Made by a program: the position numbers and the translations under genes. Shown here one piece after another: positions 7,014 through 41,712 of a stretch of DNA of 64,000 bases. The notes beneath the pieces are model-generated. The model was not told the DNA's origin, did not search any database, and was given only the letters and a program-made list of their open reading frames with translations. The DNA comes from Microbispora sp. H13382 (lineage in GTDB: Bacteria; Actinomycetota; Actinomycetes; Streptosporangiales; Streptosporangiaceae): the NCBI RefSeq assembly GCF_014161445.1, contig NZ_JABBXA010000001.1:682001-746000 (forward strand), given 5' to 3'. The stretch's first letter is position 1. Every line of letters starts with the position of its first letter.

Positions 7014-8437
7014 CGGGCCCCGCGCCCGGCCCCGCCGGCGCCGCGCCCGCGCGGAAGACCGATCGCCGGGAGCCCGAGCGTCAGGGGCCCGAGCCCATCG
7101 GCTGGGCCGCCGCCCAGCTCGCCGCGCTGCGCGAGCTGCTCGGCCGCCCGCTGACGTCCTACCATCTCGTGCTCGGCTGCAGTGCGCTGCTGCTGGCGCT
7201 CGGGCTGATGATGGTGCTGTCGGCGTCGAGCATCGAGGCGCTCCAGCGGACCGGCGACCCCTTCTACTGGTTCCTCAAGCAGGTCACGTCCGTGGCGATC
7301 GGGCTCCCCCTGATGTGGGTCTGCTCCCGGCTGCCGCAGCGGTTCTTCCGCCTGGCCGGCTATCCGCTGATGGGCCTGTCGATCCTCGGCCTGCTGATGG
7401 TCATCTTCCTCGGCCAGGAGCTGCTGGGCGCCCAGCGGTGGATCGTCATCGGCCCGTTCTCGGTCCAGCCGTCGGAGCCGGCGAAGCTGGCCCTGGTGCT
7501 GTGGGGGGCCGACCTGCTCGCCACGCGGGCACGCGCCGGGCGCATCGAGTGGCGACAGCTGCTGATCCCGCTGATGCCGGGCGTGGCCCTGCTGGCCGTC
7601 CTGGTCATGCTGGGGCGCGACCTCGGCACGACGCTCGTGCTCATGATGATCTTCCTCGCGCTGCTGTGGGTGGTCGGCGCGCCGGTGCGGCTGTTCGGCG
7701 GGATCCTCGCGCTGCTCGTGCTGGCGACCGCCACTATGATCATCGTCGAGCCGTACCGGCTCGGCCGTCTCACCGGTTTCATGCACGTGTGGGAGACCGC
7801 GCAGGACGAGGGGTTCCAGTCCGCCCAGGGGCTGATGGCGATCGGCTCGGGCGGCTGGTTCGGCCTCGGGCTCGGCGCGGGCCGGCAGAAGTGGAACTAC
7901 GTCCCGCACGCGGAGAGCGACTTCATCTTCTCCATCCTGGGCGAGGAGCTCGGGCTGATGGGGACGCTCGTGGTGGTCGCGCTGTTCGGCCTGCTCGGCT
8001 ACGCCGGGCTGCGCATCGCCATGCGGACGAAGGACCCCTTCGTCCGGCTGTCGGCCGCCGCCGTCACCGCCTGGATCGCCGGGCAGGCCGTGGTCAACAT
8101 CGGCGCGGTCATCGGGGTCTTCCCGGTCACCGGCATCCCGTTGCCCCTGGTGTCGTACGGCGGATCGGCGCTGCTGCCGACGCTCGCGGCGCTCGGCATG
8201 CTGCTGTCGTTCGCCAAGCAGGAGCCCGGAGCGGCCGAGGCGCTGGCCGCCCGTGGCCCGGGACCGGCCGCGCGGGCTCTAAGCTGGCTTGGCTTGAACG
8301 GCCGCGCCAGGCGGCCCGCGGCCTCGCGGGCACCGGCCCGGCAGCAGGCGGCACAGAAGGCACGGCCGCGGACGGCACGAAACGGAACGACGCGGGAACG
8401 GACGCGAGAACATCCGCGAGAACAGGGAGTGACATGA
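7010..8437 (+). CDS. ftsW: SEDS peptidoglycan glycosyltransferase FtsW
   Basis: Polytopic membrane polymerase of septal glycan strands and partner of FtsI. A basic, Pro/Ala-rich cytoplasmic N-terminus of about 50 residues precedes some ten hydrophobic segments. SEDS signatures are visible: [19 protein letters not shown], the [15 protein letters not shown] loop and [13 protein letters not shown]. The C-terminal tail (about 60 residues) is Arg/Ala-rich. The GTG start overlaps the murD stop by 4 bases, and the stop overlaps the murG ATG. 475 residues. Confidence 0.94.
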
Positions 8438-9513
8438 GGGTGGTCCTCGCCGGCGGCGGGACGGCCGGCCATATCGAGCCGGCGCTCGCGCTGGCCGACG
8501 CGCTTCGCCGGCTCGACCCGAGGATCGGCATCACCTGCCTCGGCACCGAGCGCGGCCTGGAGACCCGCCTGGTGCCCGCCCGGGGCTACGAGCTCGAACT
8601 CGTGCCCGCGGTGCCGCTGCCCCGCTCGCTCAGCCCCCAGCTCCTCACCGTGCCCGGCCGCCTGGCCGGGGCCATCGGCAGCGCCGCGGGCATCCTCGAC
8701 AGGGTCGGGGCGGACGTCCTGGTCGGCTTCGGCGGGTACGTCGCCACGCCCGGCTACCTCGGCGCCCGGCGGCGCGGGGTGCCGATCGTGGTCCACGAGG
8801 CCAACCCCCGGCCCGGCCTGGCCAACCGGCTCGGCGCCCGCCTCACCGAGCACGTCTTCACCGGCCACCCGGAGGCCGCGCTCCCGAACGCCGAGTACAT
8901 CGGCATCCCGCTGCGCCGCGAGATCAGCATGATGGACCGGCTGTCGATGGGCGACAAGGCGCGGTCGTACTTCGGGCTGGAGTCCGACCGGGTGACGCTG
9001 CTGGTGTTCGGCGGCTCGCAGGGCGCCCGCTCCATCAACCAGGCGGCGCTGGAGGCCGCGCCCTACCTGCGGGCGGCCGGCGTCCAGGTGCTGCACGTGA
9101 TCGGGCCCAAGAACACCGTCGAGGTGGAGCCCCCGCCGGGCGACCCGCAGTACGTGATCCTGCCGTACGTCGACCGGATGGACCTCGCCTACGCCGCCGC
9201 CGACCTCGTGCTGTCCCGCGCGGGCGCCATGACCTGCGCCGAGCTCACCGCGGTGGGGCTGCCCGCGGCGTTCGTGCCGCTTCCGCACGGCAACGGCGAG
9301 CAGCGCCTCAACGCCGAGCCGATCGTGCGGGGCGGGGGCGGCCTGCTGGTCGACGACGCGAACCTGTCGGCCGCCTGGATCGTCCAGACGCTGCTGCCGA
9401 TCCTGAACGACCCCGAGCGCGTGGTCGCGATGTCCGAGGCCGCGTCGCGGATGGGCCGCAAGGACGCGGACACGGCGCTCGCCCGCAAGGTGCTGGAGAT
9501 CGCTCACCGATGA
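8434..9513 (+). CDS. murG: UDP-GlcNAc:lipid I N-acetylglucosaminyltransferase
   Basis: Peripheral membrane GT-B glycosyltransferase that turns lipid I into lipid II. The N-terminal glycine-rich loop is [16 protein letters not shown]. The C-terminal UDP-GlcNAc-binding part shows [13 protein letters not shown] and [18 protein letters not shown]. In the acceptor loop, [15 protein letters not shown] is typical. Length 359, standard. ATG overlaps the ftsW stop (ATGA), and its own stop overlaps the murC ATG. Confidence 0.95.
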
Positions 9514-10934
9514 GTCTCGTCAAGCTCGTGGATCCCGTTCCCGCGGCCGCCCTGGGGCGGGTGCACTTCATCGGCATCGGCGGCGCCGGGATGTCGGGCA
9601 TCGCCCGGATCCTGCTCAAGCGGGGCGTGCCGGTGTCGGGCAGCGACGCGCGGCCCTCGGAGCTGCTGACCGAGCTGCGCGAGCTGGGCGCGGTCATCCA
9701 CGTCGGCCACGCCGCCTCCCACATCAAGAACGTGGACACGGTCGTGGTGTCCACCGCGATCCGCGACTCCAACCCCGAGCTGGGGGAGGCGCTGCGGCAG
9801 GACCTGCGGGTGATCCCGCGCGCCGCCGCGCTGGCGTCGGTCATGACCGGCCGCACCGGCATCGCCGTCGCCGGCACGCACGGCAAGACCACGACCACCT
9901 CGATGCTGACGGTGGCGTTGCAGAAGTGCGGTGAGGACCCGTCGTACTGCGTCGGCGGGCAGCTCGTGACGACCGGGCTCGGCGCCGACGACGGCGCGGG
10001 CGAGGTGTTCGTGGCGGAGGCCGACGAGAGCGACGGCTCGTTCCTCATGCTCGCCCCGGGCATCGCCGTGGTGACCAACGTCGAGGCCGACCATCTCGAC
10101 AACTACGGCGACCCCCAGGCCGTCCATGACAGCTTCGCCCGCTTCGTCGAGCGGATCGGTTCGCTGCTCGTGGTCTGCGCCGACGACCCGGGCGCCGCGG
10201 CCCTCGTGCCGATCGCGCGCGAGCGCGGCCTCACCGTCGTGACGTACGGCGAGAGCCGGGGCGCCGACCTGCGCACGACCGACGTGGTGCCGCGCGGCCT
10301 CGGCGTGGAGTTCGCCGTGGAGCTCGGCCCCGCCGCGCCCGGGGGACCGGGACGCGGCGAGGTGCGCCTCGCCGTGCCCGGCCGGCACAACGCGCTCAAC
10401 GCCACCGCGGTGATCGCCGTGGCACTCCACCTCGGCCTGCGCTTCGACGACGTCAAGGAGGGCCTGGCCGCCTTCGGCGGGGCCAAGCGGCGGTTCGAGT
10501 CGAAGGGCGAGGCCGGGGGCGTGACGGTCTACGACAGCTACGCCCACCACCCGACCGAGCTGACCGCCGACCTGCGCGCCGCCCGCGACGTCGTGACCGG
10601 CGACGGCCGGGTCATCGCGGTCTTCCAGCCGCACCTGTACTCGCGCACGCGGTTCTTCGCCGACGAGTTCGGCGCGGCGCTCGGCCTCGCCGACGAGGTG
10701 GTCGTGCTCGACGTGTACGGCGCGCGCGAGGACCCCGAGCCCGGGGTCTCCGGCGCCCTCGTCGCGGGGAAGGTCCCGCTTCCCGCCGAGCGGGTCGTGT
10801 ACGCGCCCGACCGGCAGGCCGTGCCCGCGCTCGTCGCCGGCCGGGCCCGGGCCGGCGACATCGTGCTCACGATGGGCGCGGGAGACGTGACGGAGCTCGG
10901 CCCGAGGATCGTCGCGGAGCTGTCCGCCCAGTGA
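9510..10934 (+). CDS. murC: UDP-N-acetylmuramate:L-alanine ligase
   Basis: Adds the first amino acid of the stem peptide. The N-terminal [16 protein letters not shown] nucleotide-binding segment is followed by the P-loop GTHGKTTTT (Lys126), [11 protein letters not shown] and the C-terminal DSYAHHPTE motif. 474 residues. The start codon overlaps the murG stop by four bases. The gene follows murG as in most actinobacterial dcw clusters. The next gene, ftsQ, begins 32 bases downstream. Confidence 0.95.
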
Positions 10935-28769: not shown

Positions 28770-30605
28770 TTATTTCGGGCGAAAGGTGCGCTCGAAGACG
28801 CGGAAATAGGACAAACCGGAAGTCCATCGGGAGTCGGAGACCTGCCAGTAGAGGGCGACGCAGCGGCCGTCGTCGAGCCTGAAGGCGCGGTCGAGCACCC
28901 GTACCCTGCCGGCGTCGGTCTGGTGCGTGAACTCCCAGTCCGCGGCGGGCACACCGAGGTATTCCGCGGACGTGATGCCGATGCGCTCGTAGCCGCGCAG
29001 GTACCCCTTCTTGGTCGAGGCCGCCTCCACCGTGCGCACCGCGGCCATCGGGTCGGTGGTCTCCCACGGGGTCAGGTCCACCTGCAGGTAGTCACGCCCG
29101 CTCGGGTGGTGGAAGCGCACCCGGGTGGCCTCCCTGCCGTACGGGACCCAGCCGGAGGGCAGGGCGATCGAGAAGCCGAGCGGGTCGCGATGGACCTTCC
29201 ATCCGGCGGGCAGCGCGGCCGCCGTCGGCGTGGGGCGCTCCGAGGACGGCTCCTCCGACGGCTCCTCCGACGGCTCCTCGGTCGGTGTCGCCGAGGGCTC
29301 CGGAGTAGGCTCGGCGTCGCCCGAGGTGGCATCCGAGCCCGTGGTGGGGCCGTAGCCCGTCGGCGTGAGGTCTTCGGCGGCGGTCCCGCCTCCGTTCAGC
29401 GTGCTGTAGCCGTACCAGCCGCCCGCGGCGAGGGCCACGAGCAGCAGTGGTAACAGGACGAACAGGGTCACCCTGGCGGCGGAGCCGCGCTTCGCGGGGC
29501 GCGCACCCGGTGCGGTGTGCGTGCCGGGGTGGCCTCCCGGCGGGAACGTCTGGCCGCCGTACGGATGGGCGCCGTACGGCGGCGGGGGGCCGGCCGGGCT
29601 CTGGCTCCAGGCGCCGGGCTGCCCCGGTTGCGCCGGTTGCCCCGGCATGGACGGCGAACTGTTCCAGGGGCCGCCGTAGGGCTGCTGGGGACCGGAGGGG
29701 GTCTGCGGCCACGGGCCCGCGGACGGCTGCCCGGTCGGCGCGCCGTTCCAGGGGCCGGGCTCGGGCCCCGGTCCGGGGGGAAGGGGCTCCTGCCCGGCCG
29801 ACAGGGCCGCGTTGAGCAGGGCGGCTGCCTCGGCCGCGCCGATGCGCCGGGCCGGGTCCTTGCGCAGCAGGCCCTCGAGCGCCGGCGTCAGTGCGCCCGC
29901 TCGCAGGGGCGGGGCCGGTTCGTCGTGCAGGATGGCCGCCATCGTGGCCACGGGGGAGTTGCGGTCGAACGGAGTCCTGCCCTCGACCGCCGCGTACAGC
30001 GTGGCGCCGAGGGACCACAGGTCGGACTCGGGGGTCGCGGGGTGGCCGTTCAGCCGCTCCGGCGGCATGAACGCGGGGGTGCCGGTGATGCCGCCGGTCA
30101 TGGTCAGCCCGGCCTCCTCCGGCATCGTCGCGATGCCGAAGTCGGTGAGCACCACCCGGGTCTCCCCGTTGAGCAGCACGTTCTCCGGCTTGACGTCCCG
30201 GTGGAGCACTCCCGCGGCGTGCGCGGTGCACAGCGCGTCGAGCACCTGCAGGCCGATCGCGGCGACCCGGGCGGGCGGGAGCGTGCCCTGGTCGCGCAGC
30301 ACCTGGCCCAGTGACTGCGACTGCACCAGCTGCATCACGATCCAGGGACGGCCGTCCTCCTCGATCACGTCGTGGACGACGACGACGTTCGGGTGGTCGA
30401 TGCGGCCGGCCGCCCGCGCCTCCCGGATGGTGCGCCGGTTGAAGGTCTCCCTGTCCTCTTCCGAGGTGGGGTGGTAGAGCACCTCTTTCACGGCCACCGT
30501 ACGGTCGAGCAGGTCGTCGTGGGCACGCCAGACGACGCCCATGCCCCCGCGGCCGATCGGTTCGAGCAGGTGGTACCTGCCCGCCACCCGACGCTCCTCG
30601 TCCAC
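28770..30605 (-). CDS. Membrane Ser/Thr protein kinase with extracellular GFSIALP-type domain
   Basis: 611 residues. Kinase domain (about 8-265) with GRGGMG, K40, HRDVKPEN (D137), DFG and GTPAFMPPE. A Gly/Pro/Gln-rich cytoplasmic linker, one membrane helix (about 375-397), and a Thr/Glu/Pro-rich linker with EPSEEPSEEPS follow. The C-terminal domain of about 140 residues has GWKVHRDPLGFSIALPSGW and AADWEFTHQ. The same kind of domain ends the kinase at 44419-46554 and resembles PsbP/LpqN-like folds. GTG 30605 was chosen for the GGAGG eight bases upstream; a TTG at 30620 is possible. Confidence 0.91.
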   Translation of the reverse strand: MDEERRVAGRYHLLEPIGRGGMGVVWRAHDDLLDRTVAVKEVLYHPTSEEDRETFNRRTIREARAAGRIDHPNVVVVHDVIEEDGRPWIVMQLVQSQSLGQVLRDQGTLPPARVAAIGLQVLDALCTAHAAGVLHRDVKPENVLLNGETRVVLTDFGIATMPEEAGLTMTGGITGTPAFMPPERLNGHPATPESDLWSLGATLYAAVEGRTPFDRNSPVATMAAILHDEPAPPLRAGALTPALEGLLRKDPARRIGAAEAAALLNAALSAGQEPLPPGPGPEPGPWNGAPTGQPSAGPWPQTPSGPQQPYGGPWNSSPSMPGQPAQPGQPGAWSQSPAGPPPPYGAHPYGGQTFPPGGHPGTHTAPGARPAKRGSAARVTLFVLLPLLLVALAAGGWYGYSTLNGGGTAAEDLTPTGYGPTTGSDATSGDAEPTPEPSATPTEEPSEEPSEEPSSERPTPTAAALPAGWKVHRDPLGFSIALPSGWVPYGREATRVRFHHPSGRDYLQVDLTPWETTDPMAAVRTVEAASTKKGYLRGYERIGITSAEYLGVPAADWEFTHQTDAGRVRVLDRAFRLDDGRCVALYWQVSDSRWTSGLSYFRVFERTFRPK

Positions 30606-30830
30606 CCTGTCCTCCTCCAAATCTCCTGAATGGTCCCACAGGCCGGCGCGCGGCAGTCCGCCCCGAACCTCGCGAGACCGGAAGAAGCGCGCGGTGAACG
30701 ACGGGCGAACCCGATGCCCACTTGTTATCGGACGTTATATAAGGAGGATTCGGTCGGGCGGCGGCGCGACGACATGCGAAAACGCGGCTTCTCACACTTT
30801 CCGTCGCGGTGCGGTTATATTTCGCGCGTC

Positions 30831-30859
30831 TTGTCCGGTTTATTCCGTTCTAATACTGT
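30831..30859 (+). promoter_or_regulatory. Candidate promoter of the M14 peptidase gene
   Basis: TTGTCC (30831-30836) and TACTGT (30854-30859) with a 17-base spacer, 74 bases before the start codon. It lies in an AT-rich part of the 328-base gap between divergent genes. The gap also holds TAAGGAGG (30740-30747) but no credible ORF follows it. Confidence 0.5.
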
Positions 30860-30933
30860 CCGCAGTGACTTTGTCGTTTCCCGGATGGGTGCTCCTCCCG
30901 AGACATCCCCCCGTCCCCCCGCCTGGAGGCGAG

Positions 30934-33762
30934 ATGCGGTTACGCACGACGTTGTGCGGAAGATCCCCCTACGGCATCGCGTTCGGCGCCGCGGTCCTGA
31001 TGTCGGCCGTGCTCACGCTGACGCCGGCGTCCCCCGCGCAGGCCGGCCCGGCCGGCAAGGCGCCCGCGCGGTGCGACACCGACCCGAACGCCCACCTGGC
31101 CGGAGTGCCCGCTCCGGAGCAGTTCTTCGGCTTCCCCCTGGGCAAGGGACAGCCCCGGGTGCTCACGACCGAAGAGATCAAGAAGTACGTGGACGCCGTG
31201 GCAGGCGCCTCGGACCGCGTGGTCACGGGCACGGTGGCGCACAGCGTCACCGGCCAGGACCTGCCGTACGCCATCGTGTCCGACTCCCACAACATGGTCC
31301 CGGGGCAGCTCAAGAAGATCGCGGACCAGATCCGCTCGCTGCGCGACCCGAGGTCGCTGAAGGCGGACAAGGCGGCGCGCATCGCCGCCGACTCGCCCGC
31401 CATCGTCTGGATCGCCGGCAACGTCCACGGCGGCGAGAAGAGTGGCGCCGACGCCGCCCTCAAGACGCTGTACGAGCTGGCCGGCGGCCTGTCCTGCGAC
31501 GTCGCCAAGCGCAACGACAACCTGGTCACGGTCATCATGCCGACCCAGAACCCGGACGGCCGCGACGCGAACCGCAGGCAGAACGAGTACGGCTTCGACC
31601 TCAACCGGGACTGGTTCGCCCGCACCCAGCCGGAGACCGACGGCAAGATCGAGATGCTCCGCCGGTTCCCGCCGCAGGTCTTCGTCGACGCGCACGAGAT
31701 GGGCGGGCGGCAGTACTTCTTCCCGCCCAACGCCGACCCGATCCACCACGAGATCGCCGACCAGCCGGTGGACTGGATCAACCGCATCGGCGCGGCGAAC
31801 GCCGCGGGCTTCGGCTACAACGGCGCCTGCGGCGGCGCGGTCACCACCGAGTGCTACTTCAACTACGCGACCTACGACCTGTTCTACATGGGCTACGGCG
31901 ACACGGTCCCGGCCGCCGGCTTCGGCGCCGCCGGGATGACGTTCGAGAAGGGCAGCTCGTCGGCGGTCGAGGACCGGGTGCAGCAGCAGTTCAACACCCA
32001 GTGGGCGACGACCGGCTGGGCCGCCGACAACAGGCGCGAGGTCCTGGACGGCTACTTCAAGATCTGGCAGACCGCGCTCGCCGAGGGGGCCGCCGGCGCC
32101 CTGGAGCCGAACGAGGTCGTCCAGCCGTCCAATACGGTCCGGTTCCCGGTGCCCGACATCACGATCCGGTCGTACTTCCTGCTGCCCGACCGGCAGCTCG
32201 GCGACGTGCGCCGGCTGGTGGAGCGGCTGCGCCGCATGGACGTCGAGGTCTACCGGGTGAGCAAGCCCGTGAAGGTGCCCTCCGCGCGGGTCTTCGGCGG
32301 CCGGACGGCCGGCGACGTGACGGTCCCCGAAGGGGCCTACTGGATTCCGATGGACCAGCCGCAGAAGCACTGGATCCAGGCGGTCATGGGAGAGGACCCG
32401 TACGTCCCGTTCCCCTACTTCTACGACGTCTCCTCCTGGAGCAACCCCCTGCTCGCGGGCGTGAACGCCATCTCCACCGGCGACGAGCTGTCGCCGAAGG
32501 CCACCCTCGTCAAGGACGTCGACGGCGGCGTCGCCTCCGCCGCGCCCCGGGGCGGGTCCTACTCCTACCCGATGGACTCGGCCGCCGCCTCCGAGCTGAC
32601 CTTCCGGCTGCTCGGCGCGGGCGTGCCGCTCACGCGTGACGCCGGCAGCGGGGTCGTCAGCCTGCCCGCCACGGCGATGAACCGCGGCGAGCTGGACAAG
32701 CTCGCCCGCTCGCTGGGCGTGACGGTCGAGGGCGGCGCCGCCCCGGCCGCCGGCGCCGCGCTGCGCACGCCCGACGTCGGCCTGTTCGCCGGCACCGGCG
32801 TCTCCACCACCTCCGGGTCGTACGGCGAGGCCCGCTACGTGCTCGGCGACCGCTGGGGCCTCGGGCTCACGCCGGTGACCACGGCCGACGTCAACGGCAA
32901 CACCCCGGCCTTCACCGAGCGGACCGTGCTGCTCGTCCCGGACGGCAGCAGCTCCAACGGCGGGCTGACCGCGCAGGGCCTGGCCAACCTCAGGCAGTGG
33001 GTGGCCGCGGGCGGCACGTACGTCGGGCTGCGCAACGAGGGCACCCGGGTCGCCCGGGCCGCCGGCCTCACCTCCACGACCGAGAAGGCCAAGCCGACCG
33101 GCTACCAGGTCATCGGCTCGCACTTCCGGGTCGACGTGACCCCCGGCACCCCGGTGTCCCTCGGCCGACCGGCGGAGGATTTCCAGTTCAACAACGGCGA
33201 CCCCATCCTCAGCCCCAGCCAGACCGGGGTGAACGTGCTCACCTACCCCTCCGACGACACGTTCTGGTCCAACGGCTACACCGTGGGCGCCGAGGCGCTC
33301 AAGGGCACCGTCTCCCTGGTCGACGAGCCGACCGGCGCCGGACGCGCCGTGCTGTTCGCCTACAACCCGCTGTTCCGGGCGTACAACGAGAACGGCATCC
33401 ACCTGCTCGCCAACGCGCTGCTGTACCCGGCGGGCGCGTCGCAGCCATCGCCGCAGGCGAAGCAGCGGATCGCCCCGGTCCCGGATCCGCTGCGCGTCGA
33501 CGCGGCGGCGACGGAGGAGCCGCCGAACCTCGGCGGGGAGTGGCGGCCGATCGTCGTCCAGGTGGCCGACGCCGACCTCGCGCGGACCCGCGCGGTGGTC
33601 GAGCGCTACACGGACACGGCGCTGACCGCGTCCGCGGACGGCTCGTCCTACGTCACCATCCCGAACCCCGACGGCCTGTCCGCCGACGAGCACCCGTTCG
33701 TCCGCGACCTGGTCCGCGACCTCGGCGCGGCGGGCATCCCGCTCCGCTCCGTCGTCGCCTGA
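30934..33762 (+). CDS. Secreted M14-family zinc carboxypeptidase
   Basis: 942 residues. A Sec signal peptide (about 1-33, ending near PAQAG) precedes the M14 catalytic domain. The zinc ligands are in GNVHGGEKSG (His and Glu) and DAHEMGG (His), with the general base likely in MTFEKGSSS. PDGRDANRRQNEYGFDLNRDW gives the substrate-binding Asn-Arg. The C-terminal third shows a glutamine-amidotransferase-like fold (TVLLVPDGSS, RQWVAAGGTYVGL) of unknown role. ATG with GGAGGCG upstream. A strong hairpin separates it from the next protease gene. Confidence 0.92.
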   Translation: MRLRTTLCGRSPYGIAFGAAVLMSAVLTLTPASPAQAGPAGKAPARCDTDPNAHLAGVPAPEQFFGFPLGKGQPRVLTTEEIKKYVDAVAGASDRVVTGTVAHSVTGQDLPYAIVSDSHNMVPGQLKKIADQIRSLRDPRSLKADKAARIAADSPAIVWIAGNVHGGEKSGADAALKTLYELAGGLSCDVAKRNDNLVTVIMPTQNPDGRDANRRQNEYGFDLNRDWFARTQPETDGKIEMLRRFPPQVFVDAHEMGGRQYFFPPNADPIHHEIADQPVDWINRIGAANAAGFGYNGACGGAVTTECYFNYATYDLFYMGYGDTVPAAGFGAAGMTFEKGSSSAVEDRVQQQFNTQWATTGWAADNRREVLDGYFKIWQTALAEGAAGALEPNEVVQPSNTVRFPVPDITIRSYFLLPDRQLGDVRRLVERLRRMDVEVYRVSKPVKVPSARVFGGRTAGDVTVPEGAYWIPMDQPQKHWIQAVMGEDPYVPFPYFYDVSSWSNPLLAGVNAISTGDELSPKATLVKDVDGGVASAAPRGGSYSYPMDSAAASELTFRLLGAGVPLTRDAGSGVVSLPATAMNRGELDKLARSLGVTVEGGAAPAAGAALRTPDVGLFAGTGVSTTSGSYGEARYVLGDRWGLGLTPVTTADVNGNTPAFTERTVLLVPDGSSSNGGLTAQGLANLRQWVAAGGTYVGLRNEGTRVARAAGLTSTTEKAKPTGYQVIGSHFRVDVTPGTPVSLGRPAEDFQFNNGDPILSPSQTGVNVLTYPSDDTFWSNGYTVGAEALKGTVSLVDEPTGAGRAVLFAYNPLFRAYNENGIHLLANALLYPAGASQPSPQAKQRIAPVPDPLRVDAAATEEPPNLGGEWRPIVVQVADADLARTRAVVERYTDTALTASADGSSYVTIPNPDGLSADEHPFVRDLVRDLGAAGIPLRSVVA

Positions 33763-33778
33763 TCCCACGCAGGAAACC

Positions 33779-33811
33779 GGGCCGAGCGGCCGCCCCCCGG
33801 CCGCTCGGCCC
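33779..33811 (+). terminator. Strong hairpin between the two peptidase genes
   Basis: Perfect 14-base arms GGGCCGAGCGGCCG and CGGCCGCTCGGCCC with a 5-base C loop, ending 15 bases before the M1 peptidase ATG. It may terminate or attenuate read-through. The following M1 gene has no clear promoter in the remaining gap. Confidence 0.7.
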
Positions 33812-33826
33812 CATGAAAGGACTCCC

Positions 33827-35257
33827 ATGACATCGTCCCGTTCGCGCCGGGCGACGCGGATCGGCGGCGCCGCGCTCGCGGCCGCGCTGCTCACCGCGAC
33901 CCAGGCGACCACGGCTCTCGCGGCTCCCGGGAACCCCGGGGAACCGCGCTACTCCGCGGGCGCCCCCTCGCTCGGCGACCCGTACTTCCCCGACCAGGGC
34001 AACGGCGGCTACGACGTGCGGCACTACGACGTGACGTTCTCCTACGACCCCGCCACCAAGGTCATGGACGCCACGACGGTGATCACCGCGGTCGCCACCC
34101 AGGACCTCGACCAGTTCGACCTGGACTTCCGCGGCCCGGAGATCACGTCGCTGAAGGTGGGCAAGCACCCGGCCGGCTATCGGCGGGACGGGCAGGAGCT
34201 CGTCGTCACCCCGCGGCCGAAGCTCAAGACCGGGGAGACCTTCACGGTCACGGTGTCGTACGCCGGGACGCCGCCGGTCATCACCGACCCCGACGGCTCG
34301 ATCGAGGGCTGGGTGCCGACCGACGACGGCGTCTTCGTGCCGGGCGAGCCGCAGGGCGCGCCGGCGTGGCTGCCCTCCAACGACAGCCCCGCCGACAAGG
34401 CGACCTTCACCTTCCGTGCGACCGTCCCCGAGGGCGTCACGGTGGTCGGCAACGGCCGCCTGGTGTCCAAGACGACCGCGAACGGCGAGACGACGTTCGT
34501 GTGGGACTCGGCCGAGCCGATGGCGACCTACCTCGCCACGGTGACCCTGGGGAACTTCGTCGTCAACGAGACGACCACGCCGAGCGGGATCCCGGTCTAC
34601 ACGGCCGTGGACCCGCGCCTGGTGACCCAGTCGGCCGCGGCCGTCGCGCGGATCCCCGACATCCTGGAGTACTTCTCCTCGATCTTCGGGCCGTACCCGT
34701 TCAACCAGGCGGGCGCCATCATCGACCGTGCGCCGAACGTCGGCTACGCCCTGGAGAGCCAGACCAAGCCGATCTTCTCCAGCGCGCCCAGCGTCGGCAC
34801 GATGGCGCACGAGCTCGCGCACCAGTGGTACGGCGACAGCGTGAGCGTCGGAAAGTGGTCCGACATCTGGCTGAACGAGGGCTTCGCGACGTACGCGACC
34901 TGGCTGTGGACCGAGCACACCGGGGGCGCCACCGCCCAGCAGACGTTCAACGGCGCGAGCAACTACGGCCGGGCGGCGACCTCGTCGTTCTGGCAGATCG
35001 TCACGGCCGACCCCGGCCCCGAGGACATGTTCGGCAACGTGCCGTACAACCGCGGCGCGATGACGCTGCACGCGCTGCGCGGCAAGATCGGCGACACCGC
35101 CTTCTTCACGCTGATCAAGGACTGGGCGGCGCAGCACCGGTACGGCAACACGAGCACCGCCGACTTCGTCACGGCGGCGGAGAAGGTCTCGGGCATGGAC
35201 CTGAAGGCGTTCTTCGACGTGTGGCTGTTCCAGAAGGGCAAGCCCGCCTCCTGGTGA
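33827..35257 (+). CDS. Secreted M1-family zinc metallopeptidase
   Basis: 476 residues. A signal peptide (about 1-33, cleavage near ALAAPG) is followed by an N-terminal beta-sandwich domain (about 55-240) and the gluzincin domain with HELAHQWYG (HExxH) and the third ligand Glu in NEGFATYA. It lacks the long C-terminal helical domain of full aminopeptidase N (about 850 residues), as many actinobacterial secreted M1 enzymes do. The pairing with the M14 enzyme suggests joint breakdown of extracellular peptides. Confidence 0.93.
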   Translation: MTSSRSRRATRIGGAALAAALLTATQATTALAAPGNPGEPRYSAGAPSLGDPYFPDQGNGGYDVRHYDVTFSYDPATKVMDATTVITAVATQDLDQFDLDFRGPEITSLKVGKHPAGYRRDGQELVVTPRPKLKTGETFTVTVSYAGTPPVITDPDGSIEGWVPTDDGVFVPGEPQGAPAWLPSNDSPADKATFTFRATVPEGVTVVGNGRLVSKTTANGETTFVWDSAEPMATYLATVTLGNFVVNETTTPSGIPVYTAVDPRLVTQSAAAVARIPDILEYFSSIFGPYPFNQAGAIIDRAPNVGYALESQTKPIFSSAPSVGTMAHELAHQWYGDSVSVGKWSDIWLNEGFATYATWLWTEHTGGATAQQTFNGASNYGRAATSSFWQIVTADPGPEDMFGNVPYNRGAMTLHALRGKIGDTAFFTLIKDWAAQHRYGNTSTADFVTAAEKVSGMDLKAFFDVWLFQKGKPASW

Positions 35258-35297: not shown

Positions 35298-35933
35298 TCA
35301 GGGACGCAGGTGCAGGGCGAGCTGGATCCGGTCGCGCAGGCCCAGCTTGCGCAGCACGCTGGACACGTGGTTCTTGACGGTCCCCTCGGTGATGAACAGC
35401 CGCGCCGCGATCTCCCTGTTGGCGGCCCCGGCGGCGACCATCCGCGCCACCTCCACCTCGCGGGCGGACAGCAGCTCCTGCCCGCGGAAGGCGACCGGGC
35501 TCACCGGCAGGTGCCGCAGCTCGGCGACCAGGCGGGCCGCCACGGGGCTGCCCAGCACGGTCTCCCCGCGGCTCACCCGGTGCACGGCCGAGACCAGCTC
35601 CTCCGGCGAGCAGTCCTTCAGCAGGTAGCCGGTCGCGCCGCCGCGCAGCGCGCCGAAGATGTACTCGTCCTCGTCGAACGTGCTGAGCACGACGACCGCC
35701 ACCTCCGGGTGCTCGGCGGCCAGGCGGCCGATCAGCTCCACGCCGTTCATGCCCGGCATGCGCATGTCCACCAGCGCCACGTGCGGGCGACGGCCGGCGA
35801 TCACCCGCAGCGCCTCGTGCCCGTCGGCCGCCTCACCCACGACCTCGATGCCGTCCTCGACCTCGAGCAGCTTGCGCAGCCCCTCGCGCAGCAGCGCCTG
35901 GTCGTCCACCAGCACGACCCTGACCGGGGTCAT
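35298..35933 (-). CDS. LuxR/NarL-family response regulator
   Basis: 211 residues. A receiver domain (1-120) with acidic pair D10-D11, phospho-acceptor D56 in VDMRMPG, and Lys in LLKDCS is followed by a C-terminal LuxR-type helix-turn-helix (LSAREVEVARMVAAGAANREI by position). ATG overlaps the kinase stop by 4 bases (ATGA), so it is co-translated with its partner. The divergent cysteine-peptide gene cluster, with a palindrome in the shared upstream region, is a likely target. Confidence 0.95.
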   Translation of the reverse strand: MTPVRVVLVDDQALLREGLRKLLEVEDGIEVVGEAADGHEALRVIAGRRPHVALVDMRMPGMNGVELIGRLAAEHPEVAVVVLSTFDEDEYIFGALRGGATGYLLKDCSPEELVSAVHRVSRGETVLGSPVAARLVAELRHLPVSPVAFRGQELLSAREVEVARMVAAGAANREIAARLFITEGTVKNHVSSVLRKLGLRDRIQLALHLRP

Positions 35934-37081
35934 GCCCGCACCTCCGACGACGGCAGCTCCGCGCGCAACTCGAAGCCTCCGCCCGGTCTGTTGGCGCCGG
36001 CCAGCGTGCCGCCGAGGGCCCTGGCCCGCTCCGCCAGCGACGTCAGCCCGAAGCCGCCGGCCGGCCGGTCGTCCCTGCCCTTCCCGTCGTCACTGACCAT
36101 GAGGACGACACGGCCGTCGCCGAAGGCGAGCGTGCCGCGCACGTGCTCCGCCTTCGCGTGCCGCAGCGCGTTGGTGAGCCCCTCCTGCAGCACCCGGTAG
36201 AGGACGAGCTCGGTGTCGGGCTCCAGCCGCCGCTCCTCGCCCCGCACCTCGAAGCTCACGCTGATCCCGGTGCCGTCGAACGACGCCGCGAGCCGTTCGA
36301 GCGCGGCGCTGCCGACGCGGCCGTCCAGCGCGAGCGGCCGCAGCGCGCGCACCCAGCGCCGCGCGTCGGTCAGCGCCTCCGCGGTGAGCTCCTTGGCCTG
36401 GCGGACCTCCGCCCAGGCGGCCTCGGGGCGGCGCTCGCGGAAGCGCTCGGCGTTCTCCAGGCCCATCTTGATGACCGTGAGGTGGTGGCCGACCGAGTCG
36501 TGCATCTCCGCCGCCATCCGCGCCCGCTCCTCGGCGACGGCCAGCTCCCTGATGCGTTCCAGCAACCCCTGGGCCTCCTCGCGCCTGCGCCGCGCCTCCA
36601 GAGTGGACGCCGCCATGCCCAGGCCGACCGCGGAGAACACCGCCATCGTGGCGGCCTGGGCGAGGCCCTCCGTGGCCGGTCTGCCCGTGAGCAGCGGCAC
36701 GACCGCGCACAGGACCGTGACGCAGGACAGGAGAGCGGTCGCGACGCGCATGCCGTACACGAAGGCGAGGTTGGCCATCGCGATGAGGACCAGGGGCATG
36801 TGCGTCTCGACGGACCCCGTGACTCCCAGCGCGAGCGTCGCCGCCAGGAACAGCGGCGCCACCCAACGGCGGCGCGCCGCCCGCTGCCACGGCAGCGCCG
36901 GCCAGAGTGCCGCGACCAGCGCGAGGTTGGCGGCGAACAGCACGTACTCCGGCATGCCGCTGCCGCGGCCGGTCGCGACCGCCTCCGCGAGGCCGATGGT
37001 CAGCAGGGCCGCCATCGCCCAGAACGCGACGTTCAACAGGAACGGCCGGTCGGCGTCGCGCAACCAGTCGAAACGCGCCAT
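35930..37081 (-). CDS. NarL-type sensor histidine kinase
   Basis: 383 residues. Five or six N-terminal hydrophobic segments (about 15-160) with no large extracellular domain, so the signal may be membrane-borne. The HisKA_3 dimerisation domain has the phospho-acceptor His in EMHDSVGHHLTVIK. The HATPase_c domain shows EGLTNALRHA and the DDGKG and GGFGLTSLAERA boxes. ATG 37081. The divergent start of the peptide cluster is 186 bases away. Confidence 0.94.
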   Translation of the reverse strand: MARFDWLRDADRPFLLNVAFWAMAALLTIGLAEAVATGRGSGMPEYVLFAANLALVAALWPALPWQRAARRRWVAPLFLAATLALGVTGSVETHMPLVLIAMANLAFVYGMRVATALLSCVTVLCAVVPLLTGRPATEGLAQAATMAVFSAVGLGMAASTLEARRRREEAQGLLERIRELAVAEERARMAAEMHDSVGHHLTVIKMGLENAERFRERRPEAAWAEVRQAKELTAEALTDARRWVRALRPLALDGRVGSAALERLAASFDGTGISVSFEVRGEERRLEPDTELVLYRVLQEGLTNALRHAKAEHVRGTLAFGDGRVVLMVSDDGKGRDDRPAGGFGLTSLAERARALGGTLAGANRPGGGFELRAELPSSEVRA

Positions 37082-37267: not shown

Positions 37268-37498
37268 ATGAAAGAGGTGCGATTGATGATCCGGACTCTC
37301 GAGTCGCTCACCGACCGGATGCTGAGCGCGGTGGTTCCCGCGGCCGAGGCGCAAGCCATGGCTCCGCAGTGCAAGCCCGTCTTCAGCGAGAACGTCACCT
37401 GCGGTGGCTACCCCTTCCCCGTCAAGACCGTCACGACGAGCATCTGCATCGACTTCGACGCCCGGACCTTCTACATCCAGAAGTCGGGCGGCTGCTGA
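37268..37498 (+). CDS. Candidate precursor of a secreted four-cysteine peptide
   Basis: 76 residues, no family recognised. The first 30 residues form a charged amphipathic helix (RTLESLTDRMLSAVVPAAEAQA by position) rather than a Sec signal, ending in AQA, which looks like a signal-peptidase-type cleavage site. The remaining 46 residues are polar and contain four Cys (35, 45, 60 and the C-terminal 76). AGGGAGGAAAC directly precedes ATG 37268; ATG 37286 is a second option. Downstream genes encode a thioredoxin-like protein, an ABC exporter and a signal peptidase, which supports maturation to a disulfide-bonded exported peptide. Confidence 0.8.
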   Translation: MKEVRLMIRTLESLTDRMLSAVVPAAEAQAMAPQCKPVFSENVTCGGYPFPVKTVTTSICIDFDARTFYIQKSGGC

Positions 37499-37594
37499 CC
37501 GATCGGAAGCCGCGGGAAACCGGAGCGAATTCGCGGTGAGACGCACAAGCCGAGGTTCCCGGTTCCGGCCGTGATTCGCCGTGCGCGGTGACCC

Positions 37595-37629
37595 GCCGCC
37601 CGGATCACACGAGGTGTGATCCGGGCGGC
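37595..37629 (+). terminator. Very stable hairpin after the precursor gene
   Basis: Perfect 16-base arms GCCGCCCGGATCACAC and GTGTGATCCGGGCGGC with loop GAG, between the precursor and the thioredoxin-like gene. It would end most transcripts after the precursor, or protect their 3' ends, giving more precursor than export enzyme. Confidence 0.75.
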
Positions 37630-37674
37630 GTTCGCGCGGGTGTGAATGCCAATACCTGAGACGTGGGAGTCCTC

Positions 37675-38241
37675 GTGTCGATCTTCGCAGTGTCGTTCGC
37701 CGGTCTCGTCGGCGTACTCAATCTTCTGCTGACGGCGGGCGTGATCCGCCGTCTTCGCGCGTACGACGGCCTGCGGGCCGGGGGCTCCGGTCCGGGGCCC
37801 TGGCAGACCGTGTACAAGCCCTCGCGCGCGATGCGCGCCGCCGGCGAGCGGGTGGGCACGTTCCGCGGGCACACGGTGCGCGGTGAGCCGGTCGGCGACG
37901 AGTTCTTCGCCGGGGGCACCACGCTGGTCGGGGCGTTCACCGCGGGCTGCCAGGCGTGCGAGGAGCGCCTGCCGGAGTTCGCGGAGCTCGCGGCGGCCTT
38001 CCCCGGCGACGGCGCGCGGGTGCTGGCGCTGCTCGTCGGCGACGCCGGCGACCTCGCCGACAAGATCCGGCTGCTCGAGAAGATCGCCACCGTGGTGGTG
38101 GAGCCGGATCGGAGCGGGCCGGTGGGTGAGGCGCTGGGAGTCAGGGCGTACCCCGCGCTGGCGCTGGTCGACCCGGGCGGCGTGGTCAACGCCTCCGGGT
38201 CCGGCCTGGAGCACCTGTTCCTCGATCCGGCGGAGGTCTGA
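37675..38241 (+). CDS. Membrane-anchored thioredoxin-like protein of the peptide cluster
   Basis: 188 residues. An N-terminal membrane helix (about 3-23) precedes an extracytoplasmic thioredoxin fold of the TlpA/MauD kind with CQAC active site (C92, C95) and a cis-Pro in RAYPALALVD. It probably makes or repairs disulfides in the exported four-Cys peptide. GTG 37675 was chosen for GGGAG five bases upstream; GTG 37663 is possible. The stop is two bases before the ABC transporter start, so the two are coupled. Confidence 0.85.
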   Translation: MSIFAVSFAGLVGVLNLLLTAGVIRRLRAYDGLRAGGSGPGPWQTVYKPSRAMRAAGERVGTFRGHTVRGEPVGDEFFAGGTTLVGAFTAGCQACEERLPEFAELAAAFPGDGARVLALLVGDAGDLADKIRLLEKIATVVVEPDRSGPVGEALGVRAYPALALVDPGGVVNASGSGLEHLFLDPAEV

Positions 38242-38243
38242 CG

Positions 38244-40103
38244 GTGGGCGGGATCGTCGAGGCCCTGCGGATGACCTGGCGGGCCGGCCGGCTGCACACG
38301 GGCGTGTTCGTGGTGTTCACGGTGCTGGGCGCGGTGGCGCCGGTCGCGGTGGCGTGGCTGACCAAGCTGCTCCTGGACGGTGTCACGGCCCGGGGCGGCG
38401 CCGGGGCGGTGCTCGGGCCAGGTGTCGCCCTGGCCGCCGCCGGGCTGGTCATGGCGCTGGTGCCGCACGTCCTCCGGTACACCTCGGCCGAGACCGGCCG
38501 CCGGGTCGGCCTGCTGGCGCAGGAGCGGCTGTTCGCGGTGACCGAGCGGTTCGTGGGCATGGCCAGGTTCGAGGACCCGGCCTTCCTCAACCGGCTGCGG
38601 ATGGCGCTGCAGCACGGCGGCACCACCCCGGGCGTGGTCGTCGCCGGCGCGCTGTCCACGGCGGGCGCCGTCGTCACCGGACTGGGGTTCCTCGGCTCGC
38701 TGCTGGTCTTCTCGCCGTGGATGCCCGTCCTGGTGCTCGCCTCCGCCGCACCGGTGCTCTGCGTGGAGCTGCGGCTGGCACGCCGCCGGGCCGGCCTCCA
38801 CTGGCGGCTGACCCCCGTGGAGCGCCGGGAGATCTTCTTCCGGGACCTGCTGACCGACGCCCAGGCCGCCAAGGAGATCCGGCTGTTCGGCATCGGCGCC
38901 CACCTGCGCGAGCGCATGTCGGCCCAGCGCCGCCGGGCCGACGGCGAGAACCGGCGGCAGGACCGCCGGGAACTGCACGCGCAGGGGCTGACCAGCCTGC
39001 TCGGCGCCGCGGTGGCGGGCGGGGCGACGATCTGGGCGGTGCTCGCGGCGGCGGGCGGCCGCGTCACCGTCGGCGACGTCTCCCTGCTGGTGGCGGCGGT
39101 GGCCGGGGTGCAGGCGGCGGGCCTGGCCATCGTCGACGGGATCGCCCGGTCGCACCAGCAGCTCCTGCTCTTCACGCACTTTCGCGAGGTCCTGTCCGCA
39201 GGGTCCGACCTGCCGGTGCCCGCGAGCCCCAGGGAGGCCGCCCCGCTGGCCCGCGGCATCGAGTTCCGCGACGTGTGGTTCCGCTACTCGCCCGGCCACC
39301 CCTGGACGTTGCGCGGGCTGAACCTCACCATCCCGCACGGTCGCACCGTGGGTGTGGTCGGCCGCAACGGCGCGGGCAAGAGCACCCTCGTCAAGCTGCT
39401 GTGCCGGATGTACGACCCGGAGCGCGGGGCGATCCTGTGGGACGGGGTGGACCTGCGGGACCTGGACCCGGCCGAGCTGCGGTCCCGGATCAGCGCGGTC
39501 TTCCAGGACTACATGGAATACGACCTGACAGCGGCGGAGAACATCGGCCTGGGGGACCTGGCCTGTCTCGGCGACCGGGACCGCATCGCCGCGGCGGCGC
39601 GGGACGCCGGGGCCCACGAGTTCGTCACCGCGCTGCCGGACTCCTACGACACCCTGCTGTCCCGGCTCTTCTTCCAGGGGGACGACCAGGAGGACGGCGA
39701 CGCCGCCGGCGAGACGGGGGTCACCCTGTCCGGCGGGCAGTGGCAGCGGCTGGCCCTGGCCCGCGCGCATCTGCGGGCCGGGCGCGACCTCATGATCCTC
39801 GACGAGCCCAGCTCCGGCCTGGACGCCGAGGCCGAGTACCGCATCCACCACGCCCTGCGGGAGCGGCGGGCGGGGCGGACCAGCGTGCTCGTCTCGCACC
39901 GCCTCAACACCCTGCGGGACGCCGACACGCTGGTGGTCCTGGCGGACGGCGCGGTCGCGGAACAGGGCACTCACGAGGAGCTGATGGCCCTGGACGGCGT
40001 CTACGCCGGCCTGTTCCGCATGCAGGCCGAGGGCTACGCGGAGCCGCTGCCCCCGCAGGTCGAGGACCTGCTGGAGCTGGTGCGAGGGAAGTTCGGCCGG
40101 TGA
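38244..40103 (+). CDS. ABC exporter (fused membrane and ATPase domains) of the peptide cluster
   Basis: 619 residues. The type I exporter membrane domain has about six hydrophobic segments (about 20-310). The ATPase domain has Walker A GRNGAGKST, Q-loop VFQDYMEY, signature LSGGQ, Walker B LMILDEP and the switch His in VSHRL. There is no N-terminal C39 peptidase domain, so leader removal must come from another enzyme, fitting the S26 peptidase next door. It resembles exporters from lanthipeptide-type clusters. GTG start follows CGGAGGTCTGAC. Confidence 0.9.
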   Translation: MGGIVEALRMTWRAGRLHTGVFVVFTVLGAVAPVAVAWLTKLLLDGVTARGGAGAVLGPGVALAAAGLVMALVPHVLRYTSAETGRRVGLLAQERLFAVTERFVGMARFEDPAFLNRLRMALQHGGTTPGVVVAGALSTAGAVVTGLGFLGSLLVFSPWMPVLVLASAAPVLCVELRLARRRAGLHWRLTPVERREIFFRDLLTDAQAAKEIRLFGIGAHLRERMSAQRRRADGENRRQDRRELHAQGLTSLLGAAVAGGATIWAVLAAAGGRVTVGDVSLLVAAVAGVQAAGLAIVDGIARSHQQLLLFTHFREVLSAGSDLPVPASPREAAPLARGIEFRDVWFRYSPGHPWTLRGLNLTIPHGRTVGVVGRNGAGKSTLVKLLCRMYDPERGAILWDGVDLRDLDPAELRSRISAVFQDYMEYDLTAAENIGLGDLACLGDRDRIAAAARDAGAHEFVTALPDSYDTLLSRLFFQGDDQEDGDAAGETGVTLSGGQWQRLALARAHLRAGRDLMILDEPSSGLDAEAEYRIHHALRERRAGRTSVLVSHRLNTLRDADTLVVLADGAVAEQGTHEELMALDGVYAGLFRMQAEGYAEPLPPQVEDLLELVRGKFGR

Positions 40104-40606
40104 CCGCCGCACCGCTGCCGTTCGTCCTCACCCTGGTCGCCGCCCTCGCCGCGGGCGTGGTCGCGGGCCTGGTCTGGGCGCGCAGGCGACTGCTGATGGT
40201 GAGCGTCTCCGGGGACAGCATGCGCCCCACCTACCGGTCCGGCGACCGGGTGCTGGTGCGGCGCGTCCCCGCCGGCCGCGTCCGGCGGGAGGACGTCGTC
40301 GTGGCCGACGTCTCCGGGGTCCTGGCGAAGCGCGCGGCGGCCCTCGGGCCGAGCCGGGTCGCTGTCGCTCCCCGGACGGGCTATGTGGTCAAGCGGGTCG
40401 CCGCGCTGCCGGGCGACCCCGTCCCCGCCCGGGTCCCCCGTACGGCGGGGGAGACCGCCGTGCCCCGGGGGGCCTTCGTCCTGCTCGGCGACAACGCCGG
40501 CCACAGCACGGACTCCCGGCACTTCGGCTACGTCCCCGCCACCGGCCTCGTCGGGAAGGTGGTCCGCGTTCTCCCCGCGCGGGCAGCGGGCGGCCGGAGG
40601 CGCTGA
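40100..40606 (+). CDS. S26-family signal peptidase of the peptide cluster
   Basis: 168 residues. One N-terminal membrane helix (about 8-27), catalytic Ser40 in SGDSMRPTY, catalytic Lys98 in YVVKRVAALPGD, and the LGDNAGHSTDSRHFG box. Smaller than housekeeping LepB. GTG overlaps the ABC stop by 4 bases. Together with the AQA site in the 76-residue precursor, this suggests a dedicated leader peptidase. No maturation enzyme such as a lanthionine synthetase is present nearby. Confidence 0.9.
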   Translation: MTAAPLPFVLTLVAALAAGVVAGLVWARRRLLMVSVSGDSMRPTYRSGDRVLVRRVPAGRVRREDVVVADVSGVLAKRAAALGPSRVAVAPRTGYVVKRVAALPGDPVPARVPRTAGETAVPRGAFVLLGDNAGHSTDSRHFGYVPATGLVGKVVRVLPARAAGGRRR

Positions 40607-40692: not shown

Positions 40693-41493
40693 CTAGAAGA
40701 CGGCCTCCGGCTGGGGGACGACGGCGCCCCGGACGGCGTCGTCGTCCCGGCGGAGCACGGCGACGTGGAGTCCGTTCAGCTCGGCCGACGGGTCGAGGCC
40801 GAGCCGGCCGCCGAGCACGGCCGTGGCGCGCCCCCAGGCCGAGATCGCCCCGGCCACGTCGCCGCCCAGGTAGCAGGCGCGCATGAGGTGCGCCCAGCTG
40901 GTCTCCCGGAAGGGGGCGTCGCCCAGCACCTCCAGGATCTCGGGGATGAGATCGGTCGTGCGGCCCAAGCCCAGGCGGGCCTCCACCAGGCGCTCCCGCA
41001 CCGTCAGGTGCAGCTCGGCGAAGGCGGTGAACCGCGACCGCAGCAGCTCCGAGGCGGTGCAGTCCTGTCCGATCGGCCCCTGCCACAGATCGAGGGCCCC
41101 GCTGAGCGCCTCCTCGGCCGCGCGGGGTTGCCGGGCGCGCAGCCGGGCGAAGCCCTCCATGGCGAGCCGCCTGAACATGACCGCGTCCACCTCCTCGGGC
41201 ACGGCGAGCAGCCGGTAGCCGCCCTCGCCGCCGCCTCCCCGGAGAGTGACCAGGCGGTCGCGCAGCCCCAGGGCCGCCAGGCGGGTACGCAGCCGGGCGA
41301 CGTGCAGTCTCAGGTTCTTGCGGGCCGAGCCGGGCGGGTCCTCCCACAGGTATCTCATCAGTTGCTCCACCGGCACCGAGCGTCCCTCTTCGAGCAGCAG
41401 CGCGGCGAGCAGCCCCCTCACCGGGGCCGATCCGATGGCCAGGGACGCGTCGTCGTGGCCGACCTGAACACGTCCCAGCAGGCGGAAGAGCAT
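40693..41493 (-). CDS. SARP-type transcriptional regulator (wHTH plus BTAD)
   Basis: 266 residues. An OmpR-like winged helix (about 1-95, with NLRLHVARLRTRLAA) is followed by the BTAD helical domain (about 100-250). No NB-ARC or TPR extension, so it belongs to the small SARP group that activates secondary metabolite clusters. ATG 41493 has AGAAAGG seven bases upstream. Convergent with the signal peptidase gene, so it is a candidate activator of the peptide cluster. Confidence 0.88.
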   Translation of the reverse strand: MLFRLLGRVQVGHDDASLAIGSAPVRGLLAALLLEEGRSVPVEQLMRYLWEDPPGSARKNLRLHVARLRTRLAALGLRDRLVTLRGGGGEGGYRLLAVPEEVDAVMFRRLAMEGFARLRARQPRAAEEALSGALDLWQGPIGQDCTASELLRSRFTAFAELHLTVRERLVEARLGLGRTTDLIPEILEVLGDAPFRETSWAHLMRACYLGGDVAGAISAWGRATAVLGGRLGLDPSAELNGLHVAVLRRDDDAVRGAVVPQPEAVF

Positions 41494-41712
41494 GTCGTGG
41501 CCTTTCTCGGGCACTCGATTCTGCGGCCTCAGGGAGGGCCGGAACATCGCGCCGCGGGGTGGGAAGGGCCGGGATGGCCACTGAGCGGGGACCCACAGGA
41601 GGGCCTGCGTCGACGTCGACGCGGGCGGGGGTTCGCCTTCTCACGTCCCACGGCCAACGCGTCGCTCCCAGCGCGTCCACGTTGACGGGCCTGGCCGTTG
41701 TTCTCATCCTGC

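Follow-up and report, generated by a model that had tools for sequence, protein, structure and literature searches.

The 64,000-nucleotide window analysed here (contig NZ_JABBXA010000001.1, positions 682,001 to 746,000) comes from the 8.7-Mb genome of Microbispora sp. H13382. At 37268..40606 it carries genes for a small cysteine-rich precursor peptide, a membrane-anchored thioredoxin-like protein, an ATP-binding cassette (ABC) exporter and an S26 signal peptidase. We consider it reasonably probable that this cluster belongs to a large actinomycete family whose predicted products are antagonistic secreted peptides, exported by the ABC protein, cut by the S26 enzyme and stabilised by disulfide bonds. 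The gene content, the anatomy of leader and core, and their conservation are established at the level of sequence, and judged from these comparisons the family is widespread and functionally coherent. In the proposed mechanism, an amphipathic leader helix would bring the precursor to the ABC exporter and not to Sec, and the dedicated S26 peptidase would cut after an A-x-A motif at the outer face. The disulfides, two of them in the window peptide, would be made by the membrane thioredoxin, in most clusters together with a MauE protein, through oxidation or reshuffling of the cysteines. The mature product would most likely be antagonistic, bacteriocin- or defensin-like.

Gene content and the recurrent leader

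The four genes that a preliminary description of this DNA had placed here, including a membrane thioredoxin with a CQAC motif, an exporter without a C39 domain and an S26 peptidase, were confirmed by open reading frames (ORFs), Pfam and NCBIfam. The thioredoxin-like protein (37663..38241, + strand, 192 residues, CQAC at 37948-37959) matches Pfam AhpC-TSA with 29.1 bits (cut-off 26) and weakly resembles ResA and DsbE, under their NCBIfam cut-offs; we take it to be MauD/TlpA-like. The exporter (38244..40103, + strand, 619 residues) contains both permease and ATPase. Pfam gives ABC_tran and no C39 match for it, so it is not of the pediocin-like C39 type, and it is 92% identical to its counterpart in M. 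catharanthi. The peptidase (40100..40606, + strand, 168 residues) scores 76.7 bits with Pfam Peptidase_S26 and 82.1 bits with the NCBIfam signal peptidase I model (TIGR02227, cut-off 47). Its presumed active-site Ser (40217-40219) and Lys (40391-40393) are present, which places it among the type I enzymes. The last three genes are as tightly joined as first described, with two bases between the thioredoxin and ABC genes and a four-base overlap between the ABC and S26 genes. Pfam and NCBIfam are in accord on these three genes and gave no match for the precursor.

The precursor gene (37268..37498, + strand) had been read as a 76-residue ORF with a strong ribosome-binding site. The ORF and the site, GGGAGGA before the outer ATG at 37268, are indeed present, but translation probably starts at the inner ATG at 37286, giving a 70-residue precursor of 24 leader and 46 core residues. 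We prefer this shorter form because the inner ATG and its AGAGGTG site are kept together in the window, in M. catharanthi and in Planomonospora, because a stop codon occupies the outer in-frame position in Planomonospora, and because the family consensus in the profile alignment also begins at the inner ATG. The leader (37286..37357, + strand, MIRTLESLTDRMLSAVVPAAEAQA) has the A-x-A end. The tail after AQA, which is the predicted mature core (37358..37495, + strand), has 46 residues and four cysteines, one of them C-terminal, exactly as originally reported.

A precursor search of 149 genomes returned one clear orthologue, in M. catharanthi (66% identity over residues 6-76), and Planomonospora also carries a homologue. 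The same search gave many weak matches, mostly to the leader half. A good share of them prove to be short ORFs in which this leader precedes a Cys-rich tail of quite another sequence, and others are chance matches. A leader profile of 24 columns was made from 19 seed leaders chosen by eye from 23 rows, leaving out the near-duplicates L010, L011 and L020 and the Cys-free match L015. The consensus reads roughly M-x-R-T-L-x-x-L-x-D-R-L-L-x-x-x-V-P-x-x-E-A-x-A. The window leader, itself one of the 19 seeds, matches the profile with 52.5 bits (E 6e-13 in its own genome), and its D-R, Pro and A-x-A are all present.

Matches to the leader profile at E 0.1 or better were found in 161 of 297 sampled genomes of the window's taxonomic family, and in 97 of them the best match reaches E <= 1e-4. 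In a class-wide sample, 106 of 394 genomes had matches at E 0.1 or better, mostly at chance level outside the window's family. The leader-only profile was also run against 33,554 ORFs from the collected loci, those cut at locus ends being left aside. It gave 173 hits of at least 20 bits, and the 170 that reach the last column represent 110 distinct precursors. Every one of the 110 has a core of at most 130 residues with at least four cysteines. Reversed and eight column-shuffled leader profiles produced no hits at 20 bits, and one of these profiles produced a single hit at 12.

A 34-row version of the profile found matches at E 0.001 or below in 38 of 392 genomes of the genus g87. In all 11 loci fetched there, the core has an even number of cysteines and a thioredoxin gene is present; 10 have MauE. 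At least five of these cores copy, or nearly copy, precursors that the other loci had already given: L235-L238, which differ little from one another or from L158, are four near-copies of a single seed family, L241 is a repeat of L195, and L239 and L245 are close to L156 and L068, respectively. These loci span about 3 kb, with S26 and ABC genes seen in only one each.

Nine diverse precursors matched no NCBIfam or Pfam model at E 1. The leader family goes unnamed because tools that look for gene clusters rely mainly on modifying enzymes, of which this family shares none.

Two loci show how the precursors can be arranged. In L102 (G076:C28:340500-359000) there are seven leader-bearing Cys-rich precursors; six stand consecutively ahead of the thioredoxin gene, and one of these six ends in G-E-A and not in A-x-A. 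A complete cluster, with two precursors and each of the five gene kinds, is located on a large linear plasmid of Streptomyces clavuligerus (L234, NZ_CP065235.1:378912-392672). The 12 plasmid matches listed, from 29 records, are all from S. clavuligerus, and the plasmid annotation calls the precursors and the thioredoxin 'hypothetical protein'.

Partner genes across actinomycetes

The leader, the three partner genes and even cysteine numbers recur together across actinomycetes. The genome comparison that the preliminary description proposed succeeds, and a general lack of conservation in leader or Cys pattern, which it named as grounds for rejection, was not observed. Among 40 leader-picked loci, selected from the matches of the precursor and leader-profile searches, a thioredoxin gene is found in 37 (all except L113, L119 and L122), an ABC gene in 38 (all except L090 and L109), an S26 gene in 38 (all except L104 and L112) and all three in 33. 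A second set of 80 loci was seeded with the ABC gene, with thresholds of 50 bits for thioredoxin, 60 for MauE and S26 and 12 for the leader, truncated contigs included. Within 6 kb, 77 of these loci have thioredoxin, 71 S26, 63 MauE and 53 the leader, and 38 have all four. In another 14 loci outside the 53, a divergent leader was chosen by eye among the listed matches to a regular expression that itself demands an A-x-A-like end and Cys. The genera in this set include Microbispora, Planomonospora, Planobispora, Nonomuraea, Actinomadura, Streptomyces, Embleya, Lentzea, Nocardiopsis, Thermobifida, Pseudonocardia, Catellatospora, Micromonospora, Kribbella and Actinoplanes, among others.

When the thioredoxin was used as the seed in 15 genomes of the genus, 14 of them yielded 41 places in total. 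A clear leader ORF lies within about 7 kb in 36 of them, and a divergent leader is found in four (L229 and L230 at 10 bits, two in L246 by eye). The one place with no leader is G000:C3, which has a Cys-rich core and no convincing S26 gene. This locus of the window genome (L223, G000:C3:176000-190000, about 6188-9639) contains MauE, thioredoxin and ABC genes and an eight-Cys core with no recognisable leader, and it looks like a decayed sister cluster.

The presumed functional residues of the partner proteins are almost invariant in alignment rows drawn from 121 loci, some places occurring twice. The CxxC motif is kept in 115 of 116 loci with a thioredoxin gene and a later Pro in 115 of 115. The S26 active-site Ser and Lys are kept in 106/106 and 104/104 rows, respectively, and both MauE cysteines in 96 of 96 loci with MauE.

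MauE emerged from the clustering of neighbour ORFs and was named by Pfam; the protein is about 170-205 residues long and carries a CxCFG motif. The three-gene partner set of the preliminary description is thus incomplete, since the redox part usually consists of MauE and thioredoxin together (63 of 80 loci), with MauE absent here. In M. catharanthi the MauE gene is flanked by a hairpin on one side and the thioredoxin gene on the other. Away from the cluster, the window genome has six places with a MauE domain. Those on C20, C22 and C44 are inside relatives of the window cluster, and that on C3 is inside the leaderless cluster; the surroundings of C1:772877 and C12 gave no hit to thioredoxin, exporter or leader. 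In the window genome, MauE might be supplied by another cluster, or the thioredoxin might use another partner.

Neighbour ORFs of at least 70 residues were clustered at E 1e-8 across 81 ABC-seeded loci. Beyond the core set, two gene families exceed seven loci, one of BTAD/SARP regulators (37) and one of response regulators (12), and a kinase family is found in seven. No modifying enzyme recurs among these ORFs. LanC-like (PF05147), YcaO (PF02624) and radical-SAM (PF04055) matches at E 0.001 are present in the genome and none falls at the window coordinates, in agreement with the first account, which had seen no such enzyme nearby. No LanC-like, YcaO or radical-SAM family recurs in the 81 loci either, so the cluster does not fall among the lanthipeptides, the YcaO-dependent peptides or the sactipeptides.

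The hydrophobic stretch of the leader is weak, which is why we think that it is read by the ABC exporter. The best 12-mer has a mean hydropathy of 0.77 over the leaders and 0.99 in the window leader, compared with 1.95-2.6 for three window N-termini that are Sec-like by eye. The leader may instead be a short and weak Sec signal peptide, with an ordinary S26 enzyme and an ABC protein for immunity or another substrate. The A-x-A end and the score of the S26 protein as signal peptidase I would suit such an arrangement, as would the most hydrophobic leader 12-mer of the set (1.76) and the cleavage of cinnamycin-type leaders at AFA/AYA by a general type I signal peptidase, which has been postulated in the account of PMC12837462. 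We nevertheless consider Sec export very unlikely, given the hydropathy values, the charged D-R in the middle of the leader and an exporter that is among the most constant neighbours.

Core cysteines, selection and the predicted product

The label of a four-cysteine system, under which the cluster was originally described, is too narrow for the family, whose cores have 4 to 10 cysteines and mostly six. Among the 110 precursors, the counts are 4 (8 precursors), 5 (1), 6 (58), 8 (31), 9 (1) and 10 (11), so four-Cys cores like that of the window are rare. Altogether, 108 of the 110 numbers are even, as are 77 of the 79 left when similar cores are removed. A threshold of four Cys alone tilts the counts towards even numbers, and the control was therefore drawn from unrelated ORFs that pass the same threshold; 618 of 919 are even, and 122 of 170 among those with six or more. 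The excess of even numbers has p ~2e-11 against the first control and 2e-9 against the second, values that are optimistic because shared ancestry is ignored. The predominance of even numbers suggests that the core cysteines are probably paired.

Four Cys columns are common to the core alignment of the three species. An AlphaFold2 model of the window core from this three-row alignment is a three-stranded beta sheet with a mean predicted local distance difference test score (pLDDT) of 83.8. From the strand register in this model, we infer pairing of Cys 1 with 3 and Cys 2 with 4. No PDB fold stands out. A model of the whole precursor places the leader helix at 6-16 with low confidence.

A metallothionein- or bufferin-like role, in which the cores bind metal or buffer redox and are kept reduced by thioredoxin and MauE, would agree with cysteine making up 17% of core residues and with the weak, sub-cut-off likeness of the thioredoxin to ResA and DsbE. 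Metal binding does not need the even numbers seen in 77 of 79 cores, and Cys spacing varies freely among cores; we judge this role highly improbable.

Selection differs between the two parts of the precursor, as judged from differences per non-silent (pN) and silent (pS) site, with small site numbers. Between the window and M. catharanthi, constraint is evident in the leader (pN.057, pS.254) and not in the core (pN.271, pS.316). Pooled over a nine-member subfamily, the values are pN.018 and pS.145 for the leader and pN.179 and pS.277 for the core. The thioredoxin gene (pN.082, pS.202) and the ABC gene (pN.042, pS.134) were compared between the same two species. A core of the window type is convincing in only two of 341 genomes of the window's taxonomic family, a sample that probably did not include the genome of the Planomonospora relative, which is missing from the matches, and cores vary strongly within one genus. 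We assign an antagonistic role to the peptides because the conserved leader with a free core, the patchy presence, the tandem copies (seven in G076) and the SARP regulators fit it.

The peptide may alternatively be a signal whose mature disulfide form is sensed by an adjoining two-component pair. A histidine kinase (35930-37081, Pfam HisKA_3/HATPase_c) and a response regulator (35298-35933) lie next to the precursor gene (35298..37081, - strand), with an uncertain link to the cluster, and such a pair is also upstream of the precursor in M. catharanthi. However, the response-regulator family recurs in only 12 and the kinase family in only seven of the 81 loci, and the rarity and variability of the cores fit arms-race peptides better. 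A signalling role is thus distinctly unlikely in our view.

Several observations weigh against the proposal of exported, S26-cut, disulfide-stabilised antagonists. The A-x-A end is found in 79 of 79 non-redundant leaders, partly because all seed leaders carried it, and the three profile hits that were excluded from the 110, as they stop before the last column, represent one more six-Cys precursor (G076, 29 bits) with a leader ending in G-E-A. No immunity gene recurs among the ORFs of at least 70 residues in the ABC-seeded loci, shorter ones being outside that scope, which counts against a simple self-toxic bacteriocin. Disulfide closure is the least certain step because class I lasso clusters, according to PMC9266682, could form disulfides without the DoxX/thioredoxin pair, and losing the thioredoxin-like protein had its effect on release. 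In a knockout of the thioredoxin-like SviF, the peptide was made nonetheless and was detected in the mycelia alone (PMC9266682). The window cluster has no MauE gene: about 560 bp are missing at 37631..37645 (break point +/- several bases), and both flanks align with M. catharanthi. The S26 gene (pN.102, pS.140) has a pN/pS of ~0.73 compared with 0.31 for the ABC gene. Relative to silent sites, the S26 protein thus changes faster than the thioredoxin and ABC proteins between the two Microbispora species.

The last two points indicate that the window copy may be in decay. The family could be as described, with a window member that has lost MauE, has a weakly constrained S26 gene and may make no peptide; the S26-less, leaderless cluster on C3 of the same genome would be in line with this. 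On the other side, all four genes are open, key residues are present and the leader is constrained. The Planomonospora four-Cys cluster shows no MauE within 6 kb either, and the window genome has other MauE genes. We regard decay of the window copy as unlikely. Active or not, it is a rare four-Cys, MauE-less member of the family.

Other features surround these genes. A 17-bp hairpin (37594..37630, + strand) lies in the interval between the precursor and thioredoxin genes and is also present in M. catharanthi. The RNA fold of 37580-37645 is very stable (-47.7 kcal/mol, z -5.94). A terminator scan of the hairpin region found nothing, and there is no T-run behind the hairpin, which is possibly a read-through terminator or an mRNA stabiliser. 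A BTAD/SARP-type regulator gene (40693..41547, - strand, Pfam BTAD) is a possible cluster regulator; its family is present in 37 of the 81 loci, the window included. On the other side, at 30541-35257, two genes for likely secreted enzymes adjoin the cluster with no link to it seen; by eye, they are presumably carboxypeptidase-like and aminopeptidase-like.

Overall, the observations of the preliminary description are confirmed and its interpretation is partly supported. If the peptides are antagonists, the family would be a source of disulfide-stabilised miniproteins that is simple, modular and evolvable, and also a test bed for a leader that combines ABC export with signal-peptidase cleavage.

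Comparison with known systems

The window cluster follows the known logic of disulfide-bonded bacteriocins and ribosomally synthesised and post-translationally modified peptides (RiPPs), and whether it belongs to a class of its own is an evenly balanced question. Such a RiPP-like class, widespread in Actinomycetes, would be defined by disulfide-only cores, a non-Sec A-x-A leader, an in-cluster S26 leader peptidase and a MauE/thioredoxin folding pair. It would have been overlooked because no family model covers the precursors. If the class is real, it would offer stapled miniproteins with antimicrobial or antagonistic action in large and so far unexploited numbers.

Pediocin-type operons are similar in outline, with a precursor, a dedicated thioredoxin-like protein (PedC) and an ABC exporter. 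They differ in a double-glycine leader that is cut by the C39 domain of the exporter, and they have no S26 and no MauE. Class I lasso clusters (sviceucin, MS-271 and humidimycin), as presented in PMC9266682 and PMC7168211, share a DoxX-family membrane protein, a CxxC protein with a thioredoxin domain, ABC transporters and a Cys-containing peptide with two disulfides. In lasso clusters, a cyclase and a leader protease are encoded as well. No such extra family recurs in the 81 loci, as judged by ORF clustering and not by a lasso-specific profile, and the window core is not a lasso-type 21-mer.

Actifensin, the defensin-like bacteriocin from Actinomyces, resembles the window system in being actinobacterial and in having a short leader, ABC transporters, a disulfide-bonded core and variable homologues, in places with several genes per operon (PMC6989792). 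In the same account, actifensin differs by a GA-type leader end, a subtilisin-like protease and a fixed six-Cys defensin pattern, and the genes listed there include no thioredoxin, MauE or S26. The four-Cys window core does not have the C6 defensin pattern given there, C-X5-12-C-X3-C-X9-10-C-X4-5-C-X-C (PMC6989792). The cinnamycin-type lanthipeptides described in PMC12837462 share the A-x-A leader site and its postulated cleavage by a type I signal peptidase. Unlike the window system, cinnamycin has in-cluster modification enzymes and relies on a general peptidase.

No publication on the leader or the gene set was found in the literature searched, apart from a likely overlap with decRiPPter (PMC7794033). 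Calling the system undescribed, as the preliminary description did, was too strong, because decRiPPter had flagged MauE-linked Cys-rich candidates in Streptomyces (PMC7794033). The part of that report considered here gives three candidate families with mauE, one also with mauD, whose precursors have at least eight cysteines, and it suggests a role in precursor modification for the MauE-linked genes. These families differ from the window cluster in that the window precursor has four cysteines and no MauE gene beside it, and the same part describes no common leader, S26, exporter or product for them. The likeness is a Cys-rich precursor adjoining a mauE homologue, with mauD in one case. Compared by description, the MauE families of decRiPPter are likely part of the leader/ABC/thioredoxin/S26 family (PMC7794033).

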